Assembly: GCF_916700565.1 (NCBI RefSeq)
Contig: NZ_CAKAKO010000004.1
Span: 62,001 to 126,000, forward strand
DNA from: Xenophilus sp. Marseille-Q4582
GTDB lineage: Bacteria > Pseudomonadota > Gammaproteobacteria > Burkholderiales > Burkholderiaceae_C
Direction: 5' to 3'
Length of the DNA: 64,000 nt
Shown here: positions 8,014 through 21,295 of the stretch, piece after piece
Position numbering within the stretch: position 1 is the first letter of the stretch
Layout: each line of letters opens with the position of its first letter
Notes under the pieces: generated by a model
Told to the model about the DNA's origin: nothing
Databases searched by the model: none
Seen by the model: only the letters and a program-made list of their open reading frames with translations
Made by a program: the position numbers and the translations under genes

Positions 8014-8065
8014 TGTCTGGTGGCGCTTCACGGACTCGAACCGCGGACCTGTGGATTATGATTCC
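8014..8065. repeat. attL (52-bp core) with tRNA-Met 3' remnant
   Basis: Identical over 52 bp to 21215-21266. Positions 8018-8065 are the last 48 nt of a tRNA-Met in minus orientation, including the encoded CCA; the 5' part is absent. Divergence right after 8065 marks the element junction. Confidence 0.93.
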
Positions 8066-8091
8066 CTGAATGTAACAATTCACCCGTGTTG

Positions 8092-8122
8092 ATTGATGTA
8101 GATAGAATCTATGCAAATCAAT
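8092..8122. promoter_or_regulatory. AT-rich palindrome in the integrase leader
   Basis: TAGAT-AGA-ATCTA (8099-8111) forms a perfect 5+3+5 palindrome, flanked by the outer arms ATTGAT (8092-8097) and ATCAAT (8117-8122). It is the most AT-rich stretch of the element and lies between attL and int, so it is a plausible operator or promoter. The protein that would bind is unknown. Confidence 0.4.
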
Positions 8123-8193
8123 ACGTTAGGAGAGTGATGCTGGATGTTTAGCCAGCCGATGTGTTGATCGGCGTTGCTCTTTTATGGGGTAAT

Positions 8194-8220
8194 TCTCTTA
8201 CATCCGCCGTTACATCGAGT
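8194..8220. repeat. 27-bp terminal direct repeat, left copy
   Basis: Identical to 21115-21141. It contains two TTACATC hits 12 bp apart. The left copy ends on the base before the integrase ATG. Position near both att sites suggests arm-type integrase or excisionase binding sites; this is inference. Confidence 0.75.
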
Positions 8221-9657
8221 ATGGCCAAGGTCGCGTTCACGGCTCCCCGGGTGGCTGGCTTCAAGTGCCCGGCCGACAAGCAGCAGGCGTTCCTATGGGA
8301 TGCCACGGCCCCGGGCCTGGGGTTGCGCGCCACGCCCGCCGGCAAGCCTTCTTATGTCTTCCAGGGGCTGTGCCAAGGCAAGACCATTCGCATCACCATC
8401 GGCAGTCCGGCAGCGTGGACGATCCCCAATGCCCAGGCCAAGGCTCGCGAGCTGCAGCGTCAGATTGATGAGGGGCTCGACCCCCGGGAGGTGCGGCGCG
8501 AGGCCCAGGCAGCTCAAGAGCAGAAGAGGGCGGCCGAAGCTGCCGCCGCCGAGCAGGCGCGTAAGGACGCGGCCGCTGCGGCCTTGACCGTTGGCGAGGT
8601 GTGGGCCGTCTACCTGGAGGCTCGGAAAGAGCACTGGGGCGAGACGCACTACAAGGATCACGTCAAACTGGCGCGGGGCGGCGGCGAGGTCGCCAAGCGC
8701 GGCACTCGGGGTAAGGGCCTGACCATCCCCATGCCGCTGCATCCGCTCATGGCTCTGCCGCTGGGCACCCTGGATGCGCCCACCATCGAGGCATGGGCCG
8801 CCTGCGAGGCGAAGACCCGCCCGACCAGCGCGCGCCTGTCTTGGCGGCTGCTGAAGGTATTCCTGAACTGGTGCGCTGAGCAGCCGGAATATGCCGGCTT
8901 ACTGCCCGTGAAGAACGCGGCGGCCACGCGCAAGACCCGCGAGGCGCTGGGCAAGCCCAAGGCGAAGAAAGACACCCTGCTACGTGAGCAGTTGCCGGCC
9001 TGGTTCGCGGCGGTGCGCGGCATCAGTAACCCGACCATCGCGGCATCGTTGCAGGTCATGCTGCTGACGGGCGCGCGTCTTGGCGAGGTACTGACCATGC
9101 GCTGGGCGGACGTGAACGTGAAGTGGCGCGGGCTGACGATCAGGGACAAGGTAGAAGGCGAGCGAGTCATCCCCCTGACGCCCTACGTGCAGGCGCTGCT
9201 GGCTGGCCTGCCGCGCCGAAATGAGTGGGTCTTCGCCAGCACGCGCACCGTGGACATGGACCCGAAGAACGTTCGCCGCCGTGCACGGCGAGCCGAGGCT
9301 GGCGGTGTCGAGCCTGCGGCAGGCGATGTGAAAGAGGCCAGCGAGTCGGGCCACATCAGCGAGCCGCGCAGCCATCACAACTGCGCATGCCAGACTGCCG
9401 GCATTGACGGGCTCACGCTGCACGGCCTGCGCCGCAGTTTCAAGAGCCTGACCGAGTGGCTGGAGATACCGGCCGGCGTGGTTGCGCAGATCATGGGCCA
9501 CAAGCCCAGCGCCACGGCGGAGAGGCATTACACCGTGCGCCCGCTGGACCTGCTGCGAGTGCATCACGAGCGCATCGAGGCGTGGATATTGGAGCAGGCG
9601 AGGGTGACTATCGACGCCAAGGCCGAGCCCGGCAAAGCGCACTTGGTGGTCGCATGA
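8221..9657 (+). CDS. tyrosine-type site-specific integrase
   Basis: A 478-residue phage integrase. The N-terminus is the DUF4102-like arm-binding domain (FLWDATAPGLGLRATPAGKPSYVFQ), followed by a charged helical linker and a SAM-like core-binding domain. The catalytic domain shows Arg in TGARLGEVL, HGLRRSF (His-x-x-Arg), GHKPSATAERHY with the final His and nucleophile Tyr. A segment of about 30 residues before the HGLRR motif is an insertion compared with typical integrases. A GTG at 8161 is in frame, but homology-like sequence begins at ATG 8221. It lies next to attL and presumably moves the element in and out of tRNA-Met. Confidence 0.93.
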   Translation: MAKVAFTAPRVAGFKCPADKQQAFLWDATAPGLGLRATPAGKPSYVFQGLCQGKTIRITIGSPAAWTIPNAQAKARELQRQIDEGLDPREVRREAQAAQEQKRAAEAAAAEQARKDAAAAALTVGEVWAVYLEARKEHWGETHYKDHVKLARGGGEVAKRGTRGKGLTIPMPLHPLMALPLGTLDAPTIEAWAACEAKTRPTSARLSWRLLKVFLNWCAEQPEYAGLLPVKNAAATRKTREALGKPKAKKDTLLREQLPAWFAAVRGISNPTIAASLQVMLLTGARLGEVLTMRWADVNVKWRGLTIRDKVEGERVIPLTPYVQALLAGLPRRNEWVFASTRTVDMDPKNVRRRARRAEAGGVEPAAGDVKEASESGHISEPRSHHNCACQTAGIDGLTLHGLRRSFKSLTEWLEIPAGVVAQIMGHKPSATAERHYTVRPLDLLRVHHERIEAWILEQARVTIDAKAEPGKAHLVVA

Positions 9658-10256
9658 GCCGTGTAACGCTGACCAGCGTCAGCGGCAAATTCCGCTCCGT
9701 AATCGACACGGCACCCATTGCGTCCATAGTCGTGGACCTGAATATCGACGGTACGGAATTTGCAAAGTGGGTAGGTTCAATGGCTTGCGAATACCATGCA
9801 GGGGAGCATTACAAAGCGCCGGCTACAAAGGCGGCCGACCGAGAGCTTGCAAGCTATATCGGCGCGCTGGACAAGATGGAGAAAATCCTTTCCGGCCATA
9901 GCTTCGGGTCCGAGGCCGAGGCTGGATTTATTCATCTACTGCTATCGAATGGCGCGGGCCTTCAAGAAGCCGTCAACTCTCGCAAGGTGCTGCGCGGCAC
10001 CATCAAACAAGAACTTGCGGCTGCGCTTCGGGTTCAGGAACTTGCAGGCCGGCAGCAGTCGGCTGGAGGAAGGCCAGCCGCAACCCGCCGCAACGGCATC
10101 TTGAACGAGATTGTGAAAGTCCTGCGTGGCGCCGGAGCATCGGCCCGCGACGCACGAGGCCGGGCCGAGCGCATATTGATCGCCTGCCGCATCCCGGTCC
10201 CGACCGGCGAGCGCGCGGTTCGACGGGTGGAGCCGAAGCCGGGGGACAAAAACTAG
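9654..10256 (+). CDS. unknown satellite protein
   Basis: A 200-residue protein starting in an ATGA overlap with the integrase stop, so probably co-translated. It is mixed charged and soluble-looking, with a basic C-terminal third (QQSAGGRPAATRRNG...). No family was recognised. The codon usage is less GC-biased in the first half than its neighbours. Its position next to int would suit an accessory of integration or host takeover, but nothing in the sequence proves this. Confidence 0.65.
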   Translation: MSRVTLTSVSGKFRSVIDTAPIASIVVDLNIDGTEFAKWVGSMACEYHAGEHYKAPATKAADRELASYIGALDKMEKILSGHSFGSEAEAGFIHLLLSNGAGLQEAVNSRKVLRGTIKQELAAALRVQELAGRQQSAGGRPAATRRNGILNEIVKVLRGAGASARDARGRAERILIACRIPVPTGERAVRRVEPKPGDKN

Positions 10257-10281
10257 GCTTTTTTCTGCCCGGTTTTTGTCC
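10244..10281. repeat. 10-bp inverted repeat over the end of the unknown gene
   Basis: GGACAAAAAC (10244-10253) pairs with GTTTTTGTCC (10272-10281), loop 18 nt containing a T tract. It overlaps the stop codon at 10254-10256 and could form a hairpin that ends or attenuates the int transcript. Confidence 0.5.
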
Positions 10282-10309
10282 ATTACGAAAGAGCGGCGCA
10301 TCCAAATAA

Positions 10310-10357
10310 TTCGGAACCTTCACAAACAACTGCCGCACGGCAGGGAAGGTCCCGAAT
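10310..10357 (+). promoter_or_regulatory. nested hairpin covering the RBS of the HTH gene
   Basis: An outer stem of CGG-x-ACCTTC with GAAGGT-x-CCG encloses an inner CTGCC/GGCAG stem-loop, and the right arm holds the AGGGAAGG Shine-Dalgarno of the gene starting at 10356. Folding would hide the ribosome site; opening it would allow translation. The role is inferred from the layout alone. Confidence 0.4.
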
Positions 10358-10574
10358 GTTCGTCAACGCTGAGTTTCCGCCGCTGGGGTCGGTAACGCGC
10401 CCCACAGTCCCCACGCCGCAAGCGGCGCACTACGTCAACCGCAAGCCACAAACCTTGCGCGGCTGGGCTTGCTTGGAAAACGGCCCCATCCGTCCTATCC
10501 GTATCAATGGTCGCCTGGCCTGGCGCGTCGCCGACATCAAACGCCTGTTGGGCGTCGAAACGGAGGCAGCATGA
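10356..10574 (+). CDS. AlpA-like small HTH protein (putative excisionase or regulator)
   Basis: A 72-residue protein with a MerR/AlpA-type winged-helix fold: TPQAAHYVNRKPQTLRGW, then PIRPIRINGRLAWRVADIKRLL. Proteins of this size and pattern in integrative elements act as excisionases or activators of int. The start follows AGGGAAGG. Its stop overlaps the next ATG (ATGA-type), so it begins a small operon. Its RBS lies in a possible hairpin. Confidence 0.7.
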   Translation: MFVNAEFPPLGSVTRPTVPTPQAAHYVNRKPQTLRGWACLENGPIRPIRINGRLAWRVADIKRLLGVETEAA

Positions 10575-10816
10575 AAAACGCCCGACGGACCGAAGTCACG
10601 TCGAGCGCTACCGTGGAAGGCGCGCACATTGTCGCCGACGGCGGCGCCGAAAACAAGGCTGAGTACACGGTCAAAGCGCAGGCCGCACTGGCTGGCATCG
10701 CGGTGTACGCGCTGAGTAGCGGGGGCTACGTTGTCGGCCGCTGGGGCTGGGGCCGCGAACTGCCCGACCTGCGCGCCGTGGTGCAGTTCCTGAAGATGCA
10801 AGGGGTGACGCTGTGA
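10571..10816 (+). CDS. small unknown satellite protein
   Basis: 81 residues, starting inside the end of the HTH gene with GGAGG just upstream. The C-terminal half (AALAGIAVYALSSGGYVVGRWG...DLRAVVQFLKMQG) looks like a compact alpha/beta fold as in small phage proteins. No function can be assigned. Confidence 0.6.
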   Translation: MKNARRTEVTSSATVEGAHIVADGGAENKAEYTVKAQAALAGIAVYALSSGGYVVGRWGWGRELPDLRAVVQFLKMQGVTL

Positions 10817-10828
10817 TCACCTGGACCC

Positions 10829-10940
10829 TTGCCATCAGCGCCGAGCGCGCTACACTGCCCGCAAGCCTTTCCGAAGGCCCGGTGCCTGAGAAACACCATT
10901 GGTTCAGCGGTTGCAAGCCCCACCGACAAGCGGGCTTTTA
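10829..10940 (+). ncRNA. candidate P4 CI-like regulatory RNA (promoter to terminator)
   Basis: A sigma70-like promoter, TTGCCA (10829-10834) and TACACT (10851-10856) with a 16-bp spacer, would start an RNA near 10863. The transcript begins with a hairpin GCCTT-TCCG-AAGGC and ends at a terminator-like stem AAGCCC (10915-10920) with GGGCTT (10932-10937) followed by TT. That gives about 75 nt. The P4 satellite immunity RNA (CI RNA) is of this size and layout. GGTTCAGC (10901-10908) inside it is complementary to GCTGAACC at 11029-11036 downstream. Confidence 0.4.
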
Positions 10941-11121
10941 TCACGTCCATTTTCTGGGGACTGGTGCGCTTGCATCTGTCCCTCATGGTTTCGGACGGGA
11001 TGGGCAAAAGGGCAACCTGCGCCGCACGGCTGAACCCGTGTTTTTCACATCCCGTCCACCTTCTACTGCGATGAAAACGCGGCAGGCGGTGGCTTCTAGT
11101 CTCGTTCAGGAGCTTGAAACC
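10941..11121 (+). promoter_or_regulatory. structured leader downstream of the candidate RNA
   Basis: It holds a perfect 10-bp inverted repeat, GGACGGGATG (10993-11002) with CATCCCGTCC (11048-11057), and the complement of the candidate RNA at 11029-11036. One frame (10829-11074, 81 codons) is open and might be an Ash/Icd-like ORF as seen in P4-type elements, but codon quality is poor, so I do not call it a gene. Confidence 0.35.
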
Positions 11122-11631
11122 ATGTCCCGTACCACGCCCAAGAAGGGCAAGTCCACCCGCGCCCAGTCCATCACTACCATCGAGCGCAACCCTGCGCTGC
11201 CGTTCGTTGTCACGCATCGCGGCCTGCGCGGTGCGTGCGTCGGCTTCGACTACTTCCACGTCGAGCCCGGCCGACACTATTTCGAAGGCTATCAGCAGGG
11301 CCTTGACGCGGCGGCGGCGATGTTGGCCGAGGTCAAGGCCGGTGGCGAGGGCGCCAGGTACTTGGCCGCCGTGTTGAAGACGGCGGCCAAACGCGCCGAC
11401 GACAAGAACCCGGCTGTCGATGGTGCTGCCCATGGCTTCATGGCCGTCGTTTGTGAAGCAGTCCGTTTCACCGCCAAGCGCGGCGCGTGGGAGGGCTACT
11501 TCGAGGACAAGACCCGCGAGAACGCCCGCTGGGTCGAGATCGAGAACCGCCACCACGCCGAGCGCACTGCCCGCGCCATCGCAGCCCGCAAGGCCAAGAA
11601 GGCTGCCAAGGTCGAAGGAGGTGCGCAATGA
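11122..11631 (+). CDS. unknown satellite protein, basic ends
   Basis: 169 residues. AGGAG lies 10 bp before ATG 11122, which decides the start although the frame is open further upstream. A basic N-terminus (SRTTPKKGKSTR) leads into a core with aromatic residues (GFDYFHVEPGRHYFEGYQQG) and a basic helical tail (ARKAKKAAK). No family was recognised. It is the first gene after the candidate regulatory RNA, in the position P4-like elements use for early replication genes. Confidence 0.7.
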   Translation: MSRTTPKKGKSTRAQSITTIERNPALPFVVTHRGLRGACVGFDYFHVEPGRHYFEGYQQGLDAAAAMLAEVKAGGEGARYLAAVLKTAAKRADDKNPAVDGAAHGFMAVVCEAVRFTAKRGAWEGYFEDKTRENARWVEIENRHHAERTARAIAARKAKKAAKVEGGAQ

Positions 11632-11873
11632 CCGCCGTCTTCAAGCCCAACAAGCACCGCTTGCCCGGCGTCAGCCACGACAGCACGGCCACCCTGGAGA
11701 ACGGCGTCAATTTGAGCGTGCGCGCAACCGCCGAGCTGGACGAAGTGGAGGTGGCCCGCGCCACCGGCGACAGCTACATCGTGATCCGCCTCGCAGCGGC
11801 CGACGCTCGCGCCCTGGCGCATGAACTGCTGGCCGCTGCTGACGCGCAAGGAGGTGCTGATGGCGCAGCCTAA
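11628..11873 (+). CDS. small unknown satellite protein
   Basis: 81 residues, start overlapping the previous stop (ATGA), with GGAGG just upstream. The pattern of alternating strands (GVNLSVRATAELDEVEVARATGDSYIVIRL) ends in an Ala-rich helix. Function unknown; probably translationally coupled to both neighbours. Confidence 0.65.
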   Translation: MTAVFKPNKHRLPGVSHDSTATLENGVNLSVRATAELDEVEVARATGDSYIVIRLAAADARALAHELLAAADAQGGADGAA

Positions 11874-12113
11874 TCTCGCCCACCTCATCGAGCCCGTGGC
11901 CCGCCAGCTTTGGGGCGAGCCCAACGAACTGCACTCCAAGCCGGGCAATCCGCGCTGGGGCACCAACGGCAGCAAGCATGTCGAAGTCGCCAAGGGCTTC
12001 TTCGCCGACTACGAGGTCGGCGTCCGTGGTGGCGTGCTCAAGCTCATCGGCCACGTGCTGGGCAGCACCGACCGCAAGGTGCAAATGCAGTGGCTGCGCG
12101 ACAAGGGCTTTAT
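11860..12113 (+). pseudogene. 5' fragment of the Toprim/helicase gene, cut by the IS
   Basis: The gene starts at ATG 11860 (RBS AAGGAGG), overlapping the upstream gene, and reads 84 codons to DKGF before the IS enters at 12114. Joining it to 13439 after removing one TTAT duplication gives an uninterrupted frame (DKGFIADSDKLGKK) into the large 3' part. With the IS present the peptide ends at 12165 on IS-encoded residues. The fragment is an N-terminal domain with no recognised motif. Confidence 0.85.
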
Positions 12114-13434
12114 CAGGCCGTTGAAAAATCCCCTGCGAGCGTCCGCGTCGGCCGCTACGATCTGAAGCCATCCCGGAACAACTGCGACAAGAAAGATGAG
12201 AGGCAACCAAGACTTCCAGGGGGCGATGTTTAGCTACATCAGCCTTGAAGAAAGAGTGCCAGCGGCACACCCGCTGCGCAAGTTGCGCGCCGTGGTGGAT
12301 GCGCTGCTGTCGAGCATGAACAGCGAGTTCGAAGCGGTGTACGCCCGCCGTGGCCGCCCCTCGGTGCCGCCGGAGATGCTGCTCAAGGCCTTGCTGCTGC
12401 AAATCCTGTTCTCCATCCGCAGCGAACGCCAGCTGGTCGAGGCGGTCAACTACAACCTGCTGTACCGCTGGTTCGTGGGCCTGAACATTGAAGACAAGGT
12501 CTGGGACCACTCCACCTTCAGCGCCAACCGCGAACGCCTCTTCAACGAAGACCTGGCGCGCGCCTTCTTCGAGCGCGTCAAGCTCAGCGCCCAGTGGGGC
12601 CGGCTTGCCAGCGACGAACACTTCAGCGTGGACGGCACGCTGATTGAGGCCTGGGCCTCGCACAAGAGTTTCAAACGCAAAGACGACGACAGCGGCACGC
12701 CACCCGGACGCAACCCCGAGGTGAACTTCAAAGGGCAGGAGCGCTGCAACGACACCCACGCCAGCACCACCGATGCCGATGCCCGGCTGTTCAAGAAGAG
12801 CGCGGGCGACAAATCTCGCCTGTGCCACATGGGGCACATCCTCATGGAGAACCGCAACGGGCTGATCGTGGATGTGGAGATCACACATGCCAGTGGCACC
12901 GCCGAGCGCGAGGCGGCGCTGGCGATGCTCAAACGCCGGGGAAACAAGAACAAGCGGGCCACGGTCGGGGCCGACAAAGGTTACGACAGCCAGGCCTTCA
13001 TCAAGGGCTGCCGAAAGCTCAAAGTCACGCCACACGTGGCGGCCAAGGACAAGCACTCGGCGGTCGATGGCCGCATCCGGCGCCACGAGGGCTACAAGAC
13101 CAGCCTCAAAGTGCGCAAGCGCATCGAGGAGGCCTTTGGCTGGATCAAGACAGTGGGTGGTCTGGCCAAGACCAAATTGATCGGTCAGGCCAAGCTCGCG
13201 GGCCAGGCGCTGCTGTGCTTTGCCACCTACAACCTGGTGCGCATGGGCAGTCTGGGCGGCTGGTGGGACGCGCATCATGCGTGAACCATGGGATACGTGC
13301 GCCCGGAACGGGCAAAACGGCCTGCAAACAGGCCGAAATGGCCGCTCCAATCGCTGCGCAGGCCAGTTTGGGCGATCCGTTTCTTCGAAATCCACGACCC
13401 TGGCGCGTTCGATGAGCATTTTTTCAACGGCCTG
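12114..13434 (+). mobile_element. IS5-family insertion sequence, copy 2 (1321 bp)
   Basis: The same element as 1939-3259, same length, same inverted repeats and same transposase. It is flanked by the 4-bp target duplication TTAT (12110-12113 and 13435-13438). It splits the satellite's primase-helicase gene. Confidence 0.95.
12196..13284 (+). CDS. IS5-family DDE transposase (copy 2)
   Basis: A 362-residue transposase identical to the one at 2021-3109, with the same DDE residues (VDGTLIEAW, GADKGYDS, RIEEAFGW). Intact. Confidence 0.95.
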   Translation: MRGNQDFQGAMFSYISLEERVPAAHPLRKLRAVVDALLSSMNSEFEAVYARRGRPSVPPEMLLKALLLQILFSIRSERQLVEAVNYNLLYRWFVGLNIEDKVWDHSTFSANRERLFNEDLARAFFERVKLSAQWGRLASDEHFSVDGTLIEAWASHKSFKRKDDDSGTPPGRNPEVNFKGQERCNDTHASTTDADARLFKKSAGDKSRLCHMGHILMENRNGLIVDVEITHASGTAEREAALAMLKRRGNKNKRATVGADKGYDSQAFIKGCRKLKVTPHVAAKDKHSAVDGRIRRHEGYKTSLKVRKRIEEAFGWIKTVGGLAKTKLIGQAKLAGQALLCFATYNLVRMGSLGGWWDAHHA

Positions 13435-13479
13435 TTATTGCAGACAGCGACAAGCTCGGCAAGAAAACTTCCCGGACCA

Positions 13480-13506
13480 AAGTCATGGAAGTCATGCAAG
13501 TCATGG
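13480..13506 (+). repeat. three tandem AAGTCATGG repeats (iteron-like), left cluster
   Basis: Three consecutive 9-bp units (AAGTCATGG, AAGTCATGC, AAGTCATGG), encoding the VMEVMQVM stretch. The same unit recurs at the other end of the gene (15509-15534). Such arrays in satellites can be initiator-binding iterons. Confidence 0.6.
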
Positions 13507-15614
13507 CCGAGCCCAAAGCGGCGCCCACCAAGGCCGCGCCGAAGCTCAAGACCGCCAGCAAGATCGTCGCCACCTACGACTACCGCGCCGAGGACGGCAC
13601 CGTCCTGTTCCAGGTGGTTCGCATGGAGCCCAAGACCTTCCGTCAGCGGCGCCCGGATGGCGATGGCTGGAGCTGGACCGTGAAGGGTGTGCGGGTGGTG
13701 CCCTACAACCTGCCGTTCATGCAGTCCCGGCCAAGCGCCCCCGTTTTCGTGGTCGAGGGCGAGAAGGACGTGGACCGGCTCACCAAGCTGGGCGTGGTCG
13801 CCACCTGCAATGCGGCCGGCGCCGGTAAGTGGACCGACGAGCACGCGCAGTTCCTCAAGGGCCGCCGCGTCGTGATCCTGCCCGACAACGACGACGCCGG
13901 CCGCAAGCATGCGCAGAAGGTGGCCAAGTCGCTGCGCGGCATTGCCGAGGTCAGCATCGTGGAGCTGCCCTGCCTGCCTGAGAAAGGCGACATCAGCGAC
14001 TGGCTGGACGCTGGCGGCACCGTCGAGGCCCTGGCCCAGCTGATCAGCGAGGCGCCGAAGGCACCCGAGGTGCAGGGTGATGACGACGCGCCGGAAAAGG
14101 AGCGGGAGAGCCAGGCCGACCAGGTGGTGAAGTTCGCGCAGGCACGCTATGAACTGCTGCACGACGACCAGAAGAACGTCTACGCCCGCAGCATGTCCAG
14201 CGGCATCGTGTGCAGGGTGACCAGCCGCGCCTTCCGGGATGACATCTATGCCGCGTTCTTCGAGGCCCGCGGCAAGGGCATCAAGGCTGCCTCGTTCAGT
14301 GAAGCGCTGGACACGCTGACGGCCCTGGGCGTGAACAGCGGCGAGCCGGAGAAAGTCTTCCTGCGCACCGCCCACCACGACAGCGGGTACTACATCGACC
14401 TTTGCCAACCGAACAACTCGCAGGCCATCCACCTGAGCGCGGCCGGCTGGCGGGTGGTCGCCAAGCCTCCCGTGGTGTTCGTGCGCGGCGAGGCCATGCA
14501 ACCCCTGCCGCATCCAGTGGCCGGCGGCACGCTGGGCATGCTGTGGGAGCTGCTGAACGTGCCCGAAGACGCCCGCCTGCTGGTGGTCGCGTTCATCGTG
14601 GACGCCTACCGCACGGACGGCCCGTATGCTGGCCTGGAACTTTTGGGCGAACAGGGCAGCGGTAAGAGTCTCACGGCGAAGTTCATCCGGCGCTTGATCG
14701 ACCCGAACGCATGCGATCTGCGCGGCGCGCCCCGAAGCGTCGAGGACATTTTTGTGGTGGCAGGCCACTCCCACCTGGTGACCTTCGAGAACATCAGCCA
14801 CCTGCACGGCACCATGCAGGACGCGCTGTGCATCTTGTCCACGGGCGGTGGCATCGCCAAGCGCACGCTGTACTCCAACGATGAGGAAAGCATCATCAGC
14901 GTGCAGCGGCCCTGGATCATCAACGGCATCTCGGCAGCCGTCACGCAGCAGGACTTGCTGGATCGCGCCGTCACCATCGACTGCCCCGTGATCGAGGAGC
15001 GAGGCACCGCCACCGGCCTGAACGCCACGTTCGAGAAGAACCACGCCATGCTGCTGGGCGCACTCATGGACGTGGCCGCCAAGGCGCTGGAAATCCTGCC
15101 CCGCATCCGGCTGTCGCCCAAGGACCGCCCGCGCTTGGCCGAGTTCGCCATGCTGGGGATGGCTGTGGCGCAGGCGATGGGCCACGAGCCGCAGGAGTTC
15201 ATGCGCCAGTTCACTGCATCGCGCCGTGAGTCCATCGCCCGCGTGCTCGATGCATCGCCGGTCGCCAGCGCCGTGCTGGAGTACGTGGACAAGAACCCCA
15301 GTGGCATCGAGGCCAGCGCGAAGGACATCTTGTCGCGGCTGGAGGACTTCAAGCCCGTGGGCGCTGACGCCTGGCCCCGCAGCCCCAAGGGCCTGGGCGA
15401 TGCACTGCGGCGTGCAGCGCCTGCACTGCGGCAGATGGATGTGGAGTGCAAGAGCCTGGGCAACACGGGCGGCAAAGTCCGGTGGTCCATCAAAAAGAAG
15501 CCGATTGCAAGTCATGGAAGTCATGAAGTCATGGCATCGCCCGATTCAGGCCATGACATTGATGACATGCATGACTTTGGTTCGGCAACTTTTGTTGATG
15601 AGGTGCCACTGTGA
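13485..15614 (+). CDS. Toprim and P-loop helicase/primase-like protein (3' part of IS-split gene)
   Basis: A 709-residue open frame, the bulk of the satellite's replication protein. A Toprim domain (VFVVEGEKDVDRL at 87-99, then LPDNDDAGRK near 132-141) follows the repeat-encoded VMEVMQVM start. Further on is an ATPase with Walker A GEQGSGKS (about 388-395), a SILSTGGG-type region and DRAVTIDCP. The organisation resembles primase-helicases of phages and satellites. The true N-terminus is at 11860 on the far side of the IS; the ATG at 13485 may or may not be used. The 3' end holds a second AAGTCATG cluster. Confidence 0.8.
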   Translation: MEVMQVMAEPKAAPTKAAPKLKTASKIVATYDYRAEDGTVLFQVVRMEPKTFRQRRPDGDGWSWTVKGVRVVPYNLPFMQSRPSAPVFVVEGEKDVDRLTKLGVVATCNAAGAGKWTDEHAQFLKGRRVVILPDNDDAGRKHAQKVAKSLRGIAEVSIVELPCLPEKGDISDWLDAGGTVEALAQLISEAPKAPEVQGDDDAPEKERESQADQVVKFAQARYELLHDDQKNVYARSMSSGIVCRVTSRAFRDDIYAAFFEARGKGIKAASFSEALDTLTALGVNSGEPEKVFLRTAHHDSGYYIDLCQPNNSQAIHLSAAGWRVVAKPPVVFVRGEAMQPLPHPVAGGTLGMLWELLNVPEDARLLVVAFIVDAYRTDGPYAGLELLGEQGSGKSLTAKFIRRLIDPNACDLRGAPRSVEDIFVVAGHSHLVTFENISHLHGTMQDALCILSTGGGIAKRTLYSNDEESIISVQRPWIINGISAAVTQQDLLDRAVTIDCPVIEERGTATGLNATFEKNHAMLLGALMDVAAKALEILPRIRLSPKDRPRLAEFAMLGMAVAQAMGHEPQEFMRQFTASRRESIARVLDASPVASAVLEYVDKNPSGIEASAKDILSRLEDFKPVGADAWPRSPKGLGDALRRAAPALRQMDVECKSLGNTGGKVRWSIKKKPIASHGSHEVMASPDSGHDIDDMHDFGSATFVDEVPL
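15509..15578. repeat. AAGTCATG repeats, right cluster, with inverted copies
   Basis: Direct units at 15509, 15518 and 15526, then inverted copies around 15551 (CCATGAC) and 15570 (CATGACTTT). The encoded protein (ASHGSHEVMASPDSGHD) is low-complexity and not family-like, which suggests the DNA repeat is what is selected. Confidence 0.55.
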
Positions 15615-15880
15615 GCGCCGCCGATACGTTGATTCGTGCGCGTGCGGCCGGTGTTGAGATCGTGGTGCGCGACGGTGAGCTGAAGGCACGCGGCCCCGCC
15701 GAAGCCTTGGCAACCTGGGCACCTGCGCTACGCCCGCACAAACACGAGCTGCTGGCCCTACTGACGGCCGAGCCCGAACCCCGGCCCGACTGGCGCCTGC
15801 TGGACATGGCTTATCAGCAGCATCACTTCAACTGCCCGCAGTGCATCGCGGCCGGCAAGGGCTACGGTAGTCAGCCCTGA
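15611..15880 (+). CDS. TubC-N-domain-like small protein, C-terminus replaced by an IS
   Basis: It starts at GTG 15611, overlapping the upstream stop. The first about 55 residues match the TubC N-terminal docking-like fold (ADTLIRARAAGVEIVVRDG...LRPHKHELLALL), common after primase genes in phage elements. A CPQC motif suggests a zinc site. The IS at about 15871 ends it at 89 residues with GYGSQP. Without the IS the frame would run on through 17382-17434 (GYGSRCAVGLMLW...EAIK), giving about 107 residues and possibly a fourth cysteine. Confidence 0.65.
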   Translation: MSAADTLIRARAAGVEIVVRDGELKARGPAEALATWAPALRPHKHELLALLTAEPEPRPDWRLLDMAYQQHHFNCPQCIAAGKGYGSQP

Positions 15881-17370
15881 ACAATTCAGTTGTCAGCTAC
15901 AGATAGGCTGACGTCGCCAGGAGCGGCCAGCAGTGCGGCGATGACCGCCTGCATCGATAACCCGAATCGGGCGCAATAAAGCCGCAGCGCGGCCAGGATC
16001 AGGCGCAGGTTATGCCCGGCACCGCACATCACCGCGTGCAGCGCATCGCCCAGCGCACCCTTGAGCGGGTTGCGGCCCAGCCGCCCGTCCATCTTCATGT
16101 GCCCAATGGCCGGTTCGATGGCGCTGCGCCGCTTGATCATGGCCCTGAGCGTTCGGGTGATGCCCCGCTTTTGGCCCGACATCAGGATGCGCACACCTTC
16201 AACTTTCACACCCCGGTAGCCCTTGTCCACGATTGCCGTGGCGGGCGGCCTGTCCGTGCCAGTGAGGATGCCCACCTGCTCCAGTGTCTCAGCCAGGGTG
16301 TGGCCGTCGTAGGGGTTGCCCGGCATGGAGCGCATGCCCACCACCAGGCCTTCCTTCAACGTGGTAGCGATGCTGACCTTCACGCCGAACTCGTACGGTG
16401 TCCTGGCTTTGCCTTTGCTGATGCATTCGACCTCGGGCGCGTGCAGGGCGTACAGCTTGTTCTTGTCCTTCGTGCGTTGACTGAGGATGCGGCCGGTGCG
16501 CTGCAGCAGGTCTTGGACCTTGGCCTGGGCCGCTTCGGGCAGCATGTGCAGTTGGCGGGCCACCTCGCGGTGCACGCGGCCAACCCGGGTGCGCAGTGTG
16601 CGAACGGCCTTGTTCATGCGCTTGAACTGCTTGGCGTGGGCGTAGCGCCCGATCTGCGCGGCCAGCCGTGGGGCGATGCGGTTGTAGTTCTGGCGCAGTT
16701 TCAGCCCATTGCCCTCGGCCACCTTGACCAGGTGCTGGCGGCTTCGCTCCAGCAGGCGGCTGTCGGTGGGGTGAGCGATAGCCTTGGGCATCACCGTGGT
16801 GTCCACGATCACTTGCTGCACGCTGGCTTTCTTGATGACGCCACCACGCCGGGCGGCATCGATGCTGGCCGCCAGCAGCATCTCCACGCCTTCTTCCCCA
16901 ACGCGCTTTCTCCAGCGCGTCAGGCTGGACGGGTCAATGGGCAGCTCGGTCTGCAGGTAGGTCTCGCCGCAGAAGAACTGCCAGTATGGGTTCTCCACCC
17001 AGGTGTTGACCACCGCCTCGTCGGAGGCATCGAAGGTGTGCTGCAGGTACAGCAGCCCGGCGACCAGGCGCGGCGCCAAGGCGGGCCGCCCGCGCCCCGA
17101 AGTGAACGACACCGCGAACGTGCGCTCGATCTCGGCCCAGTCGATCAGCGCGCCCAGCCTGACCAGCGGATGCTTCATGTTGATCTGCTCGTCCAGTCGT
17201 GGACGAAACAACTCGCCCGTTTGCGGCTGCGAAGGCTTCGGACCCATCGGACTCCCCGGAGAAATTTGCAAGAAAACAGGCACTGGCAAGACCATACCTT
17301 GCAAATCCCGCGCCCATCAACTCGAAGAACAACCAGTCAGATCAAGGGCTTGCGAGTTGTTCAGGGCGGA
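15871..17370 (-). mobile_element. second type of IS (IS5/IS1182-like), about 1.5 kb
   Basis: Imperfect terminal inverted repeats TCAGCCCTGAACAA on the left and, in reverse complement, TCCGCCCTGAACAA on the right. The flanking sequence CTACGGTAGTC occurs on both sides (15862-15872 and 17371-17381), so the exact ends are uncertain by 1-3 bp and the duplication may be 7-11 bp. The target CTAC-G-GTAG is palindromic. One transposase gene, minus strand. It interrupts the small TubC-N-like gene. Confidence 0.88.
15886..17247 (-). CDS. IS5/IS1182-like DDE transposase
   Basis: A 453-residue transposase from ATG 17247 (GGGGAG 4 bp upstream; the frame is open to 17304). Features are an N-terminal RLDEQINMKHPLVRLGALIDW segment, GRGRPALAPRLVAGLLYLQ, a DDE triad (VDTTVMPK, IVDKGYRG, RSAIEPAIGHMK) and a long insertion between the Asp residues. 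It is unrelated in sequence to the 362-residue transposase. The frame is intact, so the IS may be active. Confidence 0.93.
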   Translation of the reverse strand: MGPKPSQPQTGELFRPRLDEQINMKHPLVRLGALIDWAEIERTFAVSFTSGRGRPALAPRLVAGLLYLQHTFDASDEAVVNTWVENPYWQFFCGETYLQTELPIDPSSLTRWRKRVGEEGVEMLLAASIDAARRGGVIKKASVQQVIVDTTVMPKAIAHPTDSRLLERSRQHLVKVAEGNGLKLRQNYNRIAPRLAAQIGRYAHAKQFKRMNKAVRTLRTRVGRVHREVARQLHMLPEAAQAKVQDLLQRTGRILSQRTKDKNKLYALHAPEVECISKGKARTPYEFGVKVSIATTLKEGLVVGMRSMPGNPYDGHTLAETLEQVGILTGTDRPPATAIVDKGYRGVKVEGVRILMSGQKRGITRTLRAMIKRRSAIEPAIGHMKMDGRLGRNPLKGALGDALHAVMCGAGHNLRLILAALRLYCARFGLSMQAVIAALLAAPGDVSLSVADN

Positions 17371-17430
17371 CTACGGTAGTCGCTGCGCGGTGGGCCTGAT
17401 GTTGTGGAGCACGTATCAGGAGGCCATCAA

Positions 17431-17835
17431 ATGATGCCGCTTGCTGATGCCGCCCGCGAGCTGGGCGTGGCGCCGGTCACGCTGAAACGCTGGCGCAAGC
17501 TGGGCTGCCCCTGTGTGCCTGGCCGGCGCGGGCGTGGGCATGCCGCGCTGTACGACCCCGATGCCATCAGAACCTGGCGCGCTGCCCATGGGCGAGAGGC
17601 TGCGATGCTGGAGATCGCCGCCGCCGCGCCTGGCGTACTCGCTGATGCCACGCTGGACGCCTTCAACCAGATCGACGCGCCGGACAAGCGCCGCCAAGCT
17701 GGACTGCTGGCCGGGACGTGGTACGTCCTGACCACCGCCCTGCTGGACCACTTGCGCACTACCTGTGCCGAAGTGCCCGAGCTTGCAGGTGTCCCCGGGC
17801 CCGTCGAGCGCCTGCGAAAAATCGCCGCGGCCTGA
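17431..17835 (+). CDS. HTH protein ahead of the capsid genes
   Basis: 134 residues, start in an ATGA overlap with the ancestral end of the previous gene, with AGGAGG 8 bp upstream. The N-terminus is a HTH (LADAARELGVAPVTLKRWRKLG, then CPCVPGRRGRG and YDPDAIRTW) as in phage DNA-packaging or regulatory proteins. The C-terminal half is helical. It may help packaging or control late genes; unproven. Confidence 0.65.
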   Translation: MMPLADAARELGVAPVTLKRWRKLGCPCVPGRRGRGHAALYDPDAIRTWRAAHGREAAMLEIAAAAPGVLADATLDAFNQIDAPDKRRQAGLLAGTWYVLTTALLDHLRTTCAEVPELAGVPGPVERLRKIAAA

Positions 17836-17859
17836 TCCATTTAGGCCCGCTTCTTCATG

Positions 17860-17910
17860 CTGGTGGCACATCAACCCGCCGCCCGGCACCCGTCCGCCTG
17901 GTGGCACATC
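17860..17910. repeat. 13-bp direct repeat before the capsid gene
   Basis: CTGGTGGCACATC occurs at 17860-17872 and 17898-17910, 38 bp apart, in the only long gap of the structural region and directly before the capsid RBS (AGAAAGGAG). It is a candidate activator site for helper-driven late transcription. Confidence 0.4.
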
Positions 17911-17929
17911 CTGAGAAAGGAGCCCTCCC

Positions 17930-19012
17930 ATGGACGCACTTCAACAAGCTGCACTGATCCGCGCCCGCAGCGCCCTGGACCTTGCCGCTGGCAGTCCTGT
18001 TCGCCAGCCCGGCCTGCTGGCATCGCGCTATCTCAAAAGCATGGCCGGCGCCGACGCGCCCGGCCAGGCCGCACGGTTCGCCGAGGAACGCCGCTATGGC
18101 GACACCATCGTCAAGGCCGCACTTGGCGCAGCATCCACATCCAGCGCACCAGCCCTGCAAGAAATTCATGCCGACTTTCTGGCCGCTGTTCGCGCCCGCA
18201 GCCTAGTGGGTCGCCTGCTGCCCCGCCTGCGCAAGCTGCCACCGAAAACCCCGACGATCCGGCAGACTGGCGGCACCAGCGCAACATGGGTGCCCGAGGG
18301 TGCATCTATCCCGTTGACGGCAGGCACGTTCGCCAAGGATGCCCAGCTTCAGGCGCTGAAGGTGGCAGGTATCGCGGCCACTACTCGCGAGTTGGCCCGC
18401 GCTGGCATCGCTGACACCCTCATCGGCGACGACCTGATCCGGGCGTGCGCCGCTGCCGTTGATAGCAAGTTCGCCAGCACCGATGCGGCCGTGACCGGCA
18501 CATCGCCCGCAGGTGTCTTCAACGGGGCAAGCGCTGGCGCATCGGCAGGCCCTGGTGCAGACGGTGCCCGTGCCGACGTGGACACCCTGCTGGCCGCCCT
18601 GGTTGGCAACATCGATAGCGTCGTGTTCATCACCAACACCCGCTGCGCCGCGCAGCTCGCCATGCTCGATCTGGCCGCTATCAATCCGAGCGGCGAAAGC
18701 ACCCTGGCCGGCCTGCCGCTGTACTTCAGCGATGCCGTCCCGGCCGTGCTGGGCCTGGTGGACTGCGCCCGCATTGAGCTGGTGGGCTTTGACGAGGCCG
18801 AGCTGGACGTGTCGCGGGAAGGCGCCCTGCAGATGGACACCGCACCGACCGGCAGCAGCATCGGCACGCCCGTTGCCACGCAGCAGGTTAGCCTGTGGCA
18901 GACGGGCACGGTCGGCCTGCGTGGCGAGATCGGCGTGAACTGGCGTGCCGCGCCTGGTGCCGCTGCCTTCGTCAGTGGTGTGGACTACAGCCCCGTGCCG
19001 GCGTCGAGCTGA
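17930..19012 (+). CDS. HK97-type major capsid protein
   Basis: 360 residues with RBS AAAGGAG. The HK97-fold signature pattern is clear: a helical N-terminal arm, then RLRKLPPKTPTIRQTGGTSATWVPEG, the E-loop/P-domain stretch (LKVAGIAATTRELARAGIADTL), AVDSKFASTDAAVTG, then the A-domain strands (VFITNTRCAAQLA, GLPLYFSDAVP) and a C-terminal tail (LRGEIGVNWRAAPGAAAFVSGV). It is the shell protein of the satellite or its ancestor. It precedes the protease gene, reversed from the common phage order. Its length is close to typical capsids, so the gene is not decayed. Confidence 0.85.
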   Translation: MDALQQAALIRARSALDLAAGSPVRQPGLLASRYLKSMAGADAPGQAARFAEERRYGDTIVKAALGAASTSSAPALQEIHADFLAAVRARSLVGRLLPRLRKLPPKTPTIRQTGGTSATWVPEGASIPLTAGTFAKDAQLQALKVAGIAATTRELARAGIADTLIGDDLIRACAAAVDSKFASTDAAVTGTSPAGVFNGASAGASAGPGADGARADVDTLLAALVGNIDSVVFITNTRCAAQLAMLDLAAINPSGESTLAGLPLYFSDAVPAVLGLVDCARIELVGFDEAELDVSREGALQMDTAPTGSSIGTPVATQQVSLWQTGTVGLRGEIGVNWRAAPGAAAFVSGVDYSPVPASS

Positions 19013-19024
19013 TCGGAGGTCGGC

Positions 19025-19780
19025 ATGCAGCAAGAAACGCTACTGCGCCTGAAGTCCGCCGGCGACCCTTGGAGCTTCACCGGCTGGGCATCAACGCCAG
19101 ACGTTGATCTGGTCGGCGACATCGTGGAGCCGAGCGGCGCCCGCTATGAACTGCCGCTGCCGCTGCTGTGGCAGCACAAGCATGACGAGCCTGTCGGGGC
19201 CGTGCGTGACGCGCACGTCTCGCACGCGGGCATCCGCGTCACCGGCAGGATCACCCCGGAAGCGCAGCGCGGCACCGAAGCGCAGGCCCTGCTGCGCGAT
19301 GGTGCCTTGGCCTTGTCAGTGGGCTTCATGGCCGAGAAGTCCGAGCCGCTGCCGACTGGCGGCCGTCGCTTCACCGCCTGGCGCTGGACGGAGCTGTCGC
19401 TGGTCAGCGTGCCCGCTAACCCACAAGCCAGGATCGGCAAGGGCCTGGTGCTGGGCAGCAAGCCCGAGGCCAAGGCAGTACCGGCGCCCCGGCCCGCAGT
19501 TCAGGCAGTGGGCGACGTCGTGACCACGCAGGCGCTGGAGCTGTTTGGCGCGGCTGTCGGCCAGGCTATCAACGAAGCCACGCGGGCGCTGCATGAGCGC
19601 ATCAAGGCGCTGGAGTCACAGAAGGCCCTGCACTTTGCGGGCGTGTTCCAGCGTGCGATGAGTTACCCGGCTGGCGCGACCGTGAAATCAGGCGATGGTG
19701 TGTTCGTCGCCTTGCGCAACATCGAAGCAGGCAAAGCCGAGCCGCAACGCCAGGGCAGCGGCTGGGATCGACTGGCATGA
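19025..19780 (+). CDS. HK97-family prohead protease with C-terminal extension
   Basis: 251 residues. The first about 140 match the U35 prohead protease: GWASTPDVDLVGDIVEPSGA, LPLLWQHKHDEPVG (catalytic His), ALSVGFMA (catalytic Ser) and WTELSLVSVPANPQA (acid region). The remaining about 100 residues, with a helical segment and QRAMSYPAGATVKSGDGVFV, are extra and could act as an internal scaffold released on maturation. RBS GGAGG. Next to the capsid gene it should mature the shell. Confidence 0.85.
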   Translation: MQQETLLRLKSAGDPWSFTGWASTPDVDLVGDIVEPSGARYELPLPLLWQHKHDEPVGAVRDAHVSHAGIRVTGRITPEAQRGTEAQALLRDGALALSVGFMAEKSEPLPTGGRRFTAWRWTELSLVSVPANPQARIGKGLVLGSKPEAKAVPAPRPAVQAVGDVVTTQALELFGAAVGQAINEATRALHERIKALESQKALHFAGVFQRAMSYPAGATVKSGDGVFVALRNIEAGKAEPQRQGSGWDRLA

Positions 19781-19791
19781 AGGGAGAACCG

Positions 19792-20055
19792 ATGACTGAG
19801 AACATGACCGCCATCGTCCTGTTCAAGCTGGCCCTGGCTGCTGGCGCAGGGGACTATCCCCATGATGCCGTGGCCCGCCTGCGCTTCGAGATCGAGCAAC
19901 GCGCCACCGCCATCGGCCTGACCTGCATCGATGTCGAGTTGCGCCAGGACGGTAACGACCTGCTGGCCGAGTGCATCTTCGACATGCAGGACGACGAGGG
20001 CAGGCCCTGGGCGCAAGCGCTGTCGGTGTCGTTGGACGACGGAGGGCTGCGCTGA
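19792..20055 (+). CDS. small unknown satellite protein
   Basis: 87 residues from ATG 19792 (AGGGAG upstream; an ATG at 19777 is in frame but has a weaker site). An N-terminal helix AIVLFKLALAAGAG is followed by acidic segments ECIFDMQDDEG. Its stop overlaps the next gene. Function unknown. Confidence 0.55.
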   Translation: MTENMTAIVLFKLALAAGAGDYPHDAVARLRFEIEQRATAIGLTCIDVELRQDGNDLLAECIFDMQDDEGRPWAQALSVSLDDGGLR

Positions 20056-20255
20056 TGGTCCAGCGTCACGACGATCGCAAGGTCTTCTGGATGTGCCGTG
20101 ACCGCCGCTTGTTCGCCCGGAAGCCAGCAGACCCGGCAGGCGCATGGGTCATCGAGGATCACGGCCGCGTGGTGTTCGATGGCACCGCAGCCGAGTGCAT
20201 CCGCTGGCTGGCGGCCGCGCCCTTGCCTGACCCCTTCAGGGCGCTGAAGGCTTGA
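20055..20255 (+). CDS. small unknown satellite protein
   Basis: 66 residues, start overlapping the previous stop by one base (TGATG). WMCRDRRLFARKPADPAGAWVIEDHGRVV suggests a small beta-rich protein. No family was recognised. Confidence 0.5.
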   Translation: MVQRHDDRKVFWMCRDRRLFARKPADPAGAWVIEDHGRVVFDGTAAECIRWLAAAPLPDPFRALKA

Positions 20256-20392
20256 TGACCTTCGGGGGGGCCTCTGGCATTTCAGCGGCATCGACCATGG
20301 AAACCGGACGGCTCCAGTCGCTTCAACGCTAACCCGGATTTTTGCCCCTGTTTTGTGTGCGCCCGCCTGCGCATGCGCGAGAGGAACAGACT

Positions 20393-20599
20393 ATGACTGC
20401 ACCGGCAACTTTGCCCAAACCGCTGAAGACCCGCATCAACCGCTTGGCGCACCTGCTGGGCACCCAGCACGCCGAGCGCGAGAGGGCCGCGATCATCGCC
20501 CGCCTGGTCGCCCTGCGCAAGAGCGGCGCCGGGTTTGCAGAGCTTGATGCCGAGCTATCCCGCCTGGAGGCAGCGAGCCAGGGGGCGGGCGCTTCCTGA
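20393..20599 (+). CDS. small helical unknown satellite protein
   Basis: 68 residues, RBS GAGAGG 8 bp ahead. Strongly helical and basic (LPKPLKTRINRLAHLLGTQHAERERAA...), perhaps DNA- or RNA-binding. It lies before the small terminase gene; a role in packaging is possible, not shown. Confidence 0.5.
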   Translation: MTAPATLPKPLKTRINRLAHLLGTQHAERERAAIIARLVALRKSGAGFAELDAELSRLEAASQGAGAS

Positions 20600-20670
20600 T
20601 TCTGGACGAACCGACCCGGGAAACCTCACCGGTTCCCCACGCGCAGAACATTTCTCCCGCCACGAACAAA

Positions 20671-20988
20671 ATGATGACGCCCACCAGCCTCAAGCCCCGC
20701 CAACGCGCCTTCGTAGATGGTGTTCACCGTGGCCTGTCCCTGGCGGCGGCAGCCCGTCAAGCCGGCTACGCGGCCGGCAGCGCCAGGCAGACCGGCAGCA
20801 GGCTCATGCAGCACCCCGCCATCATCGAGGCCCTGGAGCGCCGCAGGGCGGGCTACACCGGCATGCCGCCCGTCACCGACGATCCCCGCGAGTTCTTGAT
20901 CTGGTGCATGTACGACCTCGAGCTTTTGGGCATGCGTGAGCGCATCGGTGTGGCCGCGTTCCTCATGGCGTACCCCACGCGCGCCTGA
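20671..20988 (+). CDS. phage terminase small subunit (TerS)
   Basis: 105 residues. The N-terminus is the Terminase_2-type DNA-binding helix-turn-helix (LKPRQRAFVDGVHRGLSLAAAARQAGY, then ARQTGSRLMQHPAIIEALERRR), followed by a short oligomerisation-like stretch (MYDLELLGMRERIGVAAFLMAY). TerS picks the packaging site on DNA. The large subunit is absent from the element, as expected for satellites that redirect a helper's TerL. Its stop overlaps the start of the next small ORF. Confidence 0.82.
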   Translation: MMTPTSLKPRQRAFVDGVHRGLSLAAAARQAGYAAGSARQTGSRLMQHPAIIEALERRRAGYTGMPPVTDDPREFLIWCMYDLELLGMRERIGVAAFLMAYPTRA

Positions 20989-21110
20989 TGGCTTATCTTG
21001 AGGTGGCGCAGCTTGCGCCACTTTATCGAAGCCACCCCGAGGAACGCATCGGCCTGCGGATGCAGGCGGCCAAGGCGCTGTTGCCGTTCTGGCATAGGTG
21101 CGTCCACTAA
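20988..21110 (+). CDS. 40-residue ORF coupled to terS
   Basis: The ATG at 20988 overlaps the terS stop (TGATG). The sequence (YLEVAQLAPLYRSHPEERIG, then MQAAKALLPFWH) resembles the C-terminal helix of terminase small subunits, so it may be a detached terS C-terminus or a small partner. It ends 5 bp before the right 27-bp repeat. Short; moderate support. Confidence 0.45.
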   Translation: MAYLEVAQLAPLYRSHPEERIGLRMQAAKALLPFWHRCVH

Positions 21111-21114
21111 AAAC

Positions 21115-21141
21115 TCTCTTACATCCGCCGTTACATCGAGT
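21115..21141. repeat. 27-bp terminal direct repeat, right copy
   Basis: Identical to 8194-8220, including two TTACATC hits 12 bp apart. It sits 74 bp inside attR, mirroring the left copy near attL. Confidence 0.75.
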
Positions 21142-21157
21142 GAAGGTAGGGCCTGAA

Positions 21158-21194
21158 AAGAGAAAAGCCCGCTACCGTTTGGATAGCGGGCTTT
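21158..21194 (-). terminator. intrinsic terminator right of the element, serving the tRNA
   Basis: A perfect 11-bp stem (AAAGCCCGCTA at 21164-21174 with TAGCGGGCTTT at 21184-21194), 9-nt loop, with a T-rich run on the minus strand. The element supplies it downstream of the rebuilt tRNA. Confidence 0.8.
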
Positions 21195-21214
21195 CCAGCA
21201 GCCATGCGGCTTTT

Positions 21215-21266
21215 TGTCTGGTGGCGCTTCACGGACTCGAACCGCGGACCTGTGGATTATGATTCC
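21215..21266. repeat. attR (52-bp core)
   Basis: Identical to 8014-8065. It overlaps the 3' 48 nt of the intact tRNA-Met, so the element donated this part of the tRNA. Confidence 0.93.
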
Positions 21267-21295
21267 ATCGCTCTAACCGACTGAGCTAAAGCGCC
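21219..21295 (-). tRNA. tRNA-Met (CAT anticodon)
   Basis: A 77-nt tRNA with encoded CCA. Acceptor GGCGCTT/AAGCGCC, D-arm GCTC/GAGC, anticodon loop ATCATAA (anticodon CAT), T-arm with TTCGAGT. The first anticodon-stem pair is an A-C mismatch. The acceptor differs from the GGCCC start usual in Ile2(CAT), so elongator Met is preferred, though Ile2 cannot be excluded. The intact gene at attR shows integration kept the tRNA functional. Confidence 0.9.

Follow-up and report, generated by a model that had tools for sequence, protein, structure and literature searches.

Capsid-forming phage-inducible chromosomal islands (cf-PICIs), for which we used the definition in a passage of PMC10690885, have a mean size of 14 kb (from a passage of PMC10803314) and are described, in the passages used, as supplying a complete head. 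According to the same passage of PMC10690885, the Streptomyces satellites MulchRoom and MiniFlayer also have their own capsid gene, together with terminases, portal, scaffold and adaptor and without a primase, and the tail of MulchRoom is thought to be helper-derived. Here we analyse an integrated element of 13.2 kb (positions 8014-21266) of Xenophilus sp. Marseille-Q4582. It lies in a window of 64,000 nucleotides, the whole stretch of DNA analysed, which is C4:62001-126000 of a 5.54-Mb genome in 13 contigs (handles beginning with G, C and L denote genomes, contigs and loci). The element carries its own HK97-type major capsid protein (MCP), prohead protease and terminase small subunit (TerS). 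We think it just probable that it is one of a portal-less lineage of capsid-carrying phage satellites and would build its own shell on the portal, motor and tail of a helper phage. Our literature search, which subscription papers mostly lay outside, found neither portal-less capsid satellites nor capsid satellites of Comamonadaceae described.

The element is like a cf-PICI in its integrase, AlpA-type regulator, primase, MCP, protease and TerS, and in its size. Unlike in a cf-PICI, a portal, terminase large subunit (TerL), connector and HNH endonuclease were not found, and the MCP belongs to another clade and has a shorter N terminus. Of the features that define cf-PICIs, we thus found an own MCP with a head maturation protease and an own TerS; of those that mark phage satellites in general, we found an integrase, attachment (att) sites, a replication gene (its primase region interrupted) and an incomplete set of virion genes. 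Because the searches for portal, TerL, connectors and HNH came up empty, we regard the element as a variant and not as a member of the cf-PICIs. The initial annotation had likened it to capsid-forming phage-inducible islands and had called its gene set an unrecognised variant; the likeness holds for MCP, protease and TerS and fails for portal, TerL, connectors and HNH. Like P4-like satellites, phage-inducible chromosomal islands (PICIs) and Staphylococcus aureus pathogenicity islands (SaPIs), the element is small and integrative and has a primase; it has a candidate antisense immunity RNA, as does P4, and a TerS, as do some SaPIs. It differs from all of these in carrying an MCP and a protease, not merely size-redirecting factors (a passage of PMC10690885 and general knowledge). 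MulchRoom and MiniFlayer resemble it in the capsid gene and differ in the further head genes they have and the primase they lack. The nearest named phage family of the MCP and protease is that of the PAJU2-like siphophages (phrog_617; MCP identity 35%), which, unlike the element, have a fused protease-MCP with a long linker, a portal, TerL and a full tail.

The element is bounded by direct repeats identical across 52 bp, attL at 8014-8065(+) and attR at 21215-21266(+). The right repeat is the 3' part of a tRNA-Met(CAT) gene at 21219-21295(-), and the left one is a copy of this tRNA 3' end. The repeats and the overlapping gene confirm that this is a discrete element integrated at tRNA-Met, as first proposed. 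A 30-bp repeat at 8191-8220(+), whose partner at 21112-21141 is 97% identical, may be an arm site of the integrase. The GC content is 0.650 in the element and 0.705 in the remaining window. Among 14 genus relatives the flanks of the tRNA-Met site are on a single contig in 13, with a spacing of 1.5-3.3 kb in 5 and of 6.8-47.7 kb in 8, suggesting that the site is used repeatedly and is near-empty in some relatives. The long inserts read with local hidden Markov models (HMMs) were those of two of the 8 relatives, G407 (L082) and G255 (L083, L084). G255 has a 36-kb element with a different integrase at this site. The island of G407 (L082, G407:C113), of 19.5 kb with a 49-bp repeat, has an integrase 69-71% and an AlpA-like protein 50% identical to those of the window; local HMMs found no MCP, portal or TerL in it, and its cargo gave matches to a DNA ejection protein (phrog_598, 1.4e-18) and an acetyltransferase. 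An apparent swap like this, of the virion cassettes carried by a shared backbone, is more in keeping with a modular satellite than with the simple decay of a prophage. The case that would show a truncated prophage, homologues within a longer, complete prophage at the same site, was sought by MCP and integrase in the 15 genus genomes and was not found. The MCP occurred only here and in G071 and G402, which look like two assemblies of a single strain; the integrase (E<=1e-60) occurred only here, twice in G407 (once at the same site and once elsewhere) and once in G400.

Twenty frames of the element were scanned against PHROG and Pfam profiles. The MCP (360 aa, 17930-19012(+)) matched phrog_617 (6.7e-26) and Pfam Phage_capsid PF05065 (1.6e-11, above cut-off). 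It is followed by an S78 prohead protease (251 aa, 19025-19780(+); PF04586 6.4e-9, above cut-off), whose His and Ser motifs, presumably catalytic, are present, as they are in 10/10 aligned sequences; its C-terminal extension, read by eye against L020, is coiled-coil or CBM-like. The TerS is short (105 aa, 20671-20988(+); Pfam Terminase_2 6.2e-7, above cut-off; phrog_641 3.3e-14) and 76% identical to that of L031. Upstream of the MCP lies a Nu1/MerR-type helix-turn-helix (HTH) protein (143 aa, 17404-17835(+); Pfam MerR_1 above cut-off; phrog_57 TerS 2e-7) with homologues in L031 (57%) and L140 (41%). At the left end is a tyrosine integrase (498 aa, GTG start, 8161-9657(+); phrog_1 4.9e-39; Pfam Phage_integrase and Arm-DNA-bind_3 above cut-off), and a Toprim primase-helicase of 709 aa is encoded at 13485-15614(+) (phrog_239 2.1e-29; Pfam Toprim_2 above cut-off). 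These profile matches agree with the genes named in the initial annotation. The AlpA-like regulator named there is a 72-aa AlpA/excisionase-like HTH protein (10356-10574(+)), for which a weak match stood (phrog_66 0.0038) and Pfam HTH_17 stayed below cut-off; the gene of L082 mentioned above is its counterpart. A 92-aa frame at 19777-20055(+), from the list of open reading frames (ORFs), gave a weak match only. By eye, a short frame 3' of TerS (20988-21110(+)) resembles another C-terminal segment of TerS.

Portal, TerL, tape measure, Ad1, Hc1, major tail protein and tail terminator gave chance-level signals only in the element (local HMMs, filters off, best E 0.36-5.5), so the portal, TerL and tail genes do appear to be missing, as had been claimed, and with Ad1 and Hc1 the head-tail connectors. 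The portal and TerL searches used HK97-type models, which members of other families could escape. Genome-wide, the portal search was limited to family PF04860, and its matches, like those of the phrog_9 TerL, lay on contigs C2 and C3 only and not on contig C4. These portal and TerL matches, at ~1.02 Mb of C2 and ~745 kb of C3, served as positive controls; both loci look like HK97-type prophages from gene lists named by eye and by local HMM, and are candidate helpers. No HNH endonuclease was found in the 20 scanned frames or in four further-scanned frames of the window, small frames being only partly scanned. The P4 gene set comprises alpha, sid, psu and delta; the general PHROG and Pfam scans named none of these, and no search was aimed at them. 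A different explanation of so partial a gene set is that the element is the remnant of a full-head (cf-PICI-like) satellite or of a prophage, in which portal, TerL and connectors were lost and insertion sequences (IS) broke what was left. We consider such a remnant unlikely, though well worth weighing; that the frames for the integrase, MCP, protease and TerS are open speaks against it.

The MCP tree comprised 53 rows, 33 with and 20 without a portal. The window MCP fell into a clade of 19 rows (support 100/99), 17 of which were scored portal-less; the two with a portal both came from G267. MCPs of full-head (cf-PICI-like) elements and of PAJU2-like prophages grouped apart from this clade. Since the MCP belongs to a strongly supported and mostly portal-less clade, the element is unlike a freshly cut prophage, and the portal-less state of 17 of its 19 rows, across several families and sites, counts against a remnant. 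The portal label changed 5 times on the tree against 16.2 in shuffles, and none of 500 shuffles was as low; the shuffles indicate clustering and do not establish a single origin. A quick tree of 55 rows agreed, with a 20-row clade of which 18 lacked a portal. Portal-less L052, L059 and L060 fell outside the clade, and so did L186 in the quick tree. For L188, L171 and L132 the portal-less scoring is based on contigs that extend 3.0, 3.5 and 4.4 kb past the MCP on its downstream side, and for L054 3.3 kb upstream of the MCP was available. L140 and L032 are long branches whose placement is unsure. We omitted copies of included elements (L018, L020, L023, L030, L065, L104 and L166) before making the tree, and then L173 for its short contig, L186 for its long branch and L022 because it nearly duplicates L086. 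Loci L024 and L033 (G267:C12), with MCP and portal and with TerL and protease undetected, lie inside the portal-less MCP clade. L059 (G759) and L060 (G426) have fused protease-MCP genes on a separate MCP branch, with the portal undetected and genomes of 2.0-2.4 Mb.

Members of the clade also have a short MCP N terminus. Before a common core site there are 83-103 residues in 12 clade members, counted from the chosen start codon, and 163-204 in 23 unfused portal-associated rows and 191-257 in four unfused prophage rows, both measured from the frame's first Met and thus upper bounds. The MCPs of the 12 members are therefore ~60-90 residues shorter at the N terminus than portal-associated MCPs, a difference that depends on start choice, as the frames are open for 208 (L096) and 160 (L105) residues. 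The portal-bearing clade members are also short (88 and 91), and L052, a portal-less row from elsewhere in the tree, is long with 187 residues, indicating that the short N terminus tracks the clade and not portal loss as such. The shortness of the N terminus in the clade counts against a remnant. AlphaFold2 modelling of the MCP (10 sequences) gave a mean pLDDT of 80.4 and a pTM of 0.77, with a helical N-terminal part. An MCP without much of the N-terminal scaffold-like region, in an element without a portal of its own, could alternatively serve interference: instead of forming a shell by itself, it might co-assemble with or poison the MCP of the helper and so shrink heads or block helper assembly, with an effect like that of P4 Sid or the SaPI size factors. 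Loci in which the MCP is the sole detected head gene (L053, L054, L132 and L188, the last two on short contigs) would suit this explanation. We judge it rather improbable, given that 7/19 clade members have an intact-looking protease, which poisoning would not need, and that the own genome gave no further MCP match to that of the window at E<=0.001, so that a resident MCP partner of close kin is lacking.

We compared the sister pair L022 and L023 for signs of selection. The dN/dS was 0.15 for the MCP (16.5 nonsynonymous and 35.5 synonymous changes), 0.09 for the protease (3.5 and 12.5) and 0.65 for the helicase. These values show that both MCP and protease are under purifying selection in this pair, which counts against a remnant.

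Relatives of the MCP, with the own genome counted, were present in 15/399 genomes of the family, 3/15 of the genus (two of these probably one strain) and 13/399 of the order. IMG/VR scans with the window MCP, TerS and Nu1 and a GTDB-contig scan with TerS returned no relative. With a helicase bait from sister elements we collected 80 named loci (the best 80 of 110) and 25 IMG/VR loci; because the replication gene of the window element differs in type from this helicase, the set samples sister elements. Local HMMs detected an MCP in 15/80 named and 21/25 IMG/VR loci. The MCP carriers are of three kinds: PAJU2-like prophages (protease, portal, TerL), full-head elements and portal-less elements. 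Read gene by gene, the full-head IMG/VR contig L167 has MCP, protease, portal, HNH, TerS, TerL and a gp6-like connector; its MCP-then-protease order is the same as in the window, as a remnant of such an element would show. Local HMMs also placed MCP, portal, TerL and connectors in named full-head loci, among them those of Acidovorax (L088), Diaphorobacter (L102) and Simplicispira (L106). The IMG/VR contigs L167-L169, L177 and L178, of 10.2-11.3 kb, carry MCP, portal, TerL and connectors (cf-PICI-like), and the MCPs of L167-L169 are nearly identical.

Portal-less elements vary in what accompanies the MCP: a protease in L022, L023/L086, L029, L171 and L140; a protease and a tape measure in L020/L105; a tape measure in L018/L096 and L050 (both with HNH) and in L176 (weak TerS match); and protease, TerS and TerL in L030/L090. 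The satellite-type backbone on which the initial annotation was built is supported, as is its gene set, in which capsid, protease and TerS come with neither portal nor TerL nor tail; this set recurs in other elements. In L020/L105, L018/L096, L050 and L176 the tape measure gene is of 744-971 aa, and portal and TerL were undetected. L025 has the MCP and a weak TerS match. The PF04860 portal was absent from 6 of the first 16 genomes, was not beside the MCP in the window, G071, G402, G360 and G376:C13, was absent from 6/7 further genomes and in the seventh (G505) was present only on another contig. Some of these islands are bounded, L050 by a 48-bp repeat at tRNA-Val and L025 by a 137-bp repeat whose copies are 89% identical; the 14-bp repeats at tRNA-Ser in L023 and L053, and one 11-mer at tRNA-Thr that occurs twice per locus in L022 and L029, are suggestive only. 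MCPs occurring without other detected head genes could also point to a domesticated HK97-fold compartment, encapsulin-like and unrelated to DNA packaging. This is very improbable: the MCP sits in mobile elements beside genes for an integrase, TerS, protease or HNH endonuclease, and no cargo enzyme gene was recognised.

Several points weigh against a satellite that builds its own shell. IS A (12114-13434(+), ends approximate) apparently lies within the primase region, so the window copy is probably disabled. A protease was undetected in 12/19 clade members, two have TerL or part of it, and the two from G267 have a portal. The window MCP has no relative of more than 44% identity, the nearest row being IMG/VR contig L171 (43-44%), and the dN/dS values come from the sister pair. 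No MCP was found in 65/80 named sister-helicase loci, which suggests that it is optional in these islands. L031, the nearest relative in TerS and Nu1, retains part of TerL and an Ad1 connector beside the same TerS. The satellite MCP would have to fit a foreign portal, and the window element and its relatives are known here as sequences alone. Two of these points, the IS in the primase region and the retained TerL part and connector of L031, make loss from a fuller ancestor likely, and they count, with the second IS, in favour of a remnant.

The transposases of both IS (DUF772 and DDE_Tnp_1) are flanked by terminal inverted repeats. IS A has its transposase at 12196-13284(+) and inverted repeats at 12114-12128 and 13420-13434, and sits between the 709-aa Toprim frame and a 114-aa ORF (11821-12165(+)), whose end runs into the IS; alone, this ORF has no profile match, and by its position it is likely a fragment of the interrupted primase region. 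IS B (15873-17370(-), ends approximate) has its transposase at 15886-17304(-) and an 11-bp flanking duplication (15862-15872/17371-17381). It is at the end of an 89-aa ORF (15611-15880(+)), which runs into it and has a homologue in sister element L029 (tblastn 33%, 4e-8; Pfam TubC_N 0.008, below cut-off).

Downstream of the AlpA-like gene we found a candidate structured antisense RNA of 157 nt (10889-11045(+)), of the C4/P4-CI type. P1/P7 have the C4 RNA, whose a' and b' segments base-pair with targets, the b' pairing covering a ribosome-binding site (a passage of PMC5320573), and the CI RNA of P4 pairs with sites up- and downstream (a passage of PMC4825925); C4 and c4-a1b1 motifs are listed by Weinberg 2010 (a passage of PMC2864571). 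L022, L089 and L029 share 76-86% identity with the region 10874-11080, which has an in-frame stop in L022 and forms a covarying fold. A model of it (R1) gave 81 matches in 51/399 Comamonadaceae genomes (E<=0.001). Over 38 matches (34 distinct, one on the reverse strand) 96.3% of cells paired, against 41-48% in slid controls, a figure that leans towards the model because the alignment was fitted to it; double changes occurred in 38/54 pairs of the fold.

Second copies of the RNA's two variable 5' boxes lie downstream at 11062-11115(+), the second adjoining the ribosome-binding site, and recur at a fixed distance within the same element. This gave a test independent of the fold, made on 31/38 matches (we omitted the copies L191, L192, L195 and L201, and also L209, L179 and the reverse-strand match of L211). 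The mean longest match of own versus other boxes was 6.39/3.65 for box 1 and 6.06/3.71 for box 2 (permutation p<=5e-5 each), and three control regions were flat. For the second box, >=6 letters matched in 26/31 pairs and in 5.3% of mismatched pairs. An ATG followed at +71 to +77 in 28/31, and L212, L215 and L216 have an earlier one. No box copy was seen in the upstream region tested. Like C4 (RF01695), the RNA has boxes that match downstream sites, one of them at a ribosome-binding site, and it may act as an antisense RNA. Unlike C4 and P4 CI, it is a 157-nt fold in Comamonadaceae islands and matched none of the Rfam 15 models at E<=10, so that RF01695 was unmatched. The frame 10813-11631 was considered as one gene and rejected, because the structured RNA takes up its first part and coding starts at ~11122, where a 169-aa ORF (11122-11631(+)) with conserved ribosome-binding site and ATG has no PHROG match. 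Rfam int-alpA RNA and Proteo-phage-1 RNA occur in sister elements (L029 15419-15485(-), L022 8248-8327(-)).

If the element is a portal-less capsid satellite, lysogeny would be held by the RNA until induction of the helper lifted its block, and the element would then excise and replicate. Its MCP and protease would form a shell, sized for a 9-14-kb genome, around the portal of the helper; its TerS would steer the helper TerL to satellite DNA, and the particle would be completed with connectors, a tail and lysis functions from the helper. The fuller proposal, a deep satellite lineage that keeps shell genes only, places a shortened, scaffold-poor MCP on the portal, motor and tail of a helper to make a two-genome particle, and controls lysogeny by a new C4-like RNA family with coded specificity, is plausible to us but a little short of an even chance.

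Should this hold, the boundary that separates a satellite from its helper can pass through the head itself, with the shell kept and the portal given up. A portal-less lineage would make testable both the acceptance of a foreign portal by one MCP and the sizing of a shell when most of the usual N-terminal scaffold is absent. In the RNA these islands would have a specificity-coded switch, which could also serve as a marker in the search for further ones.

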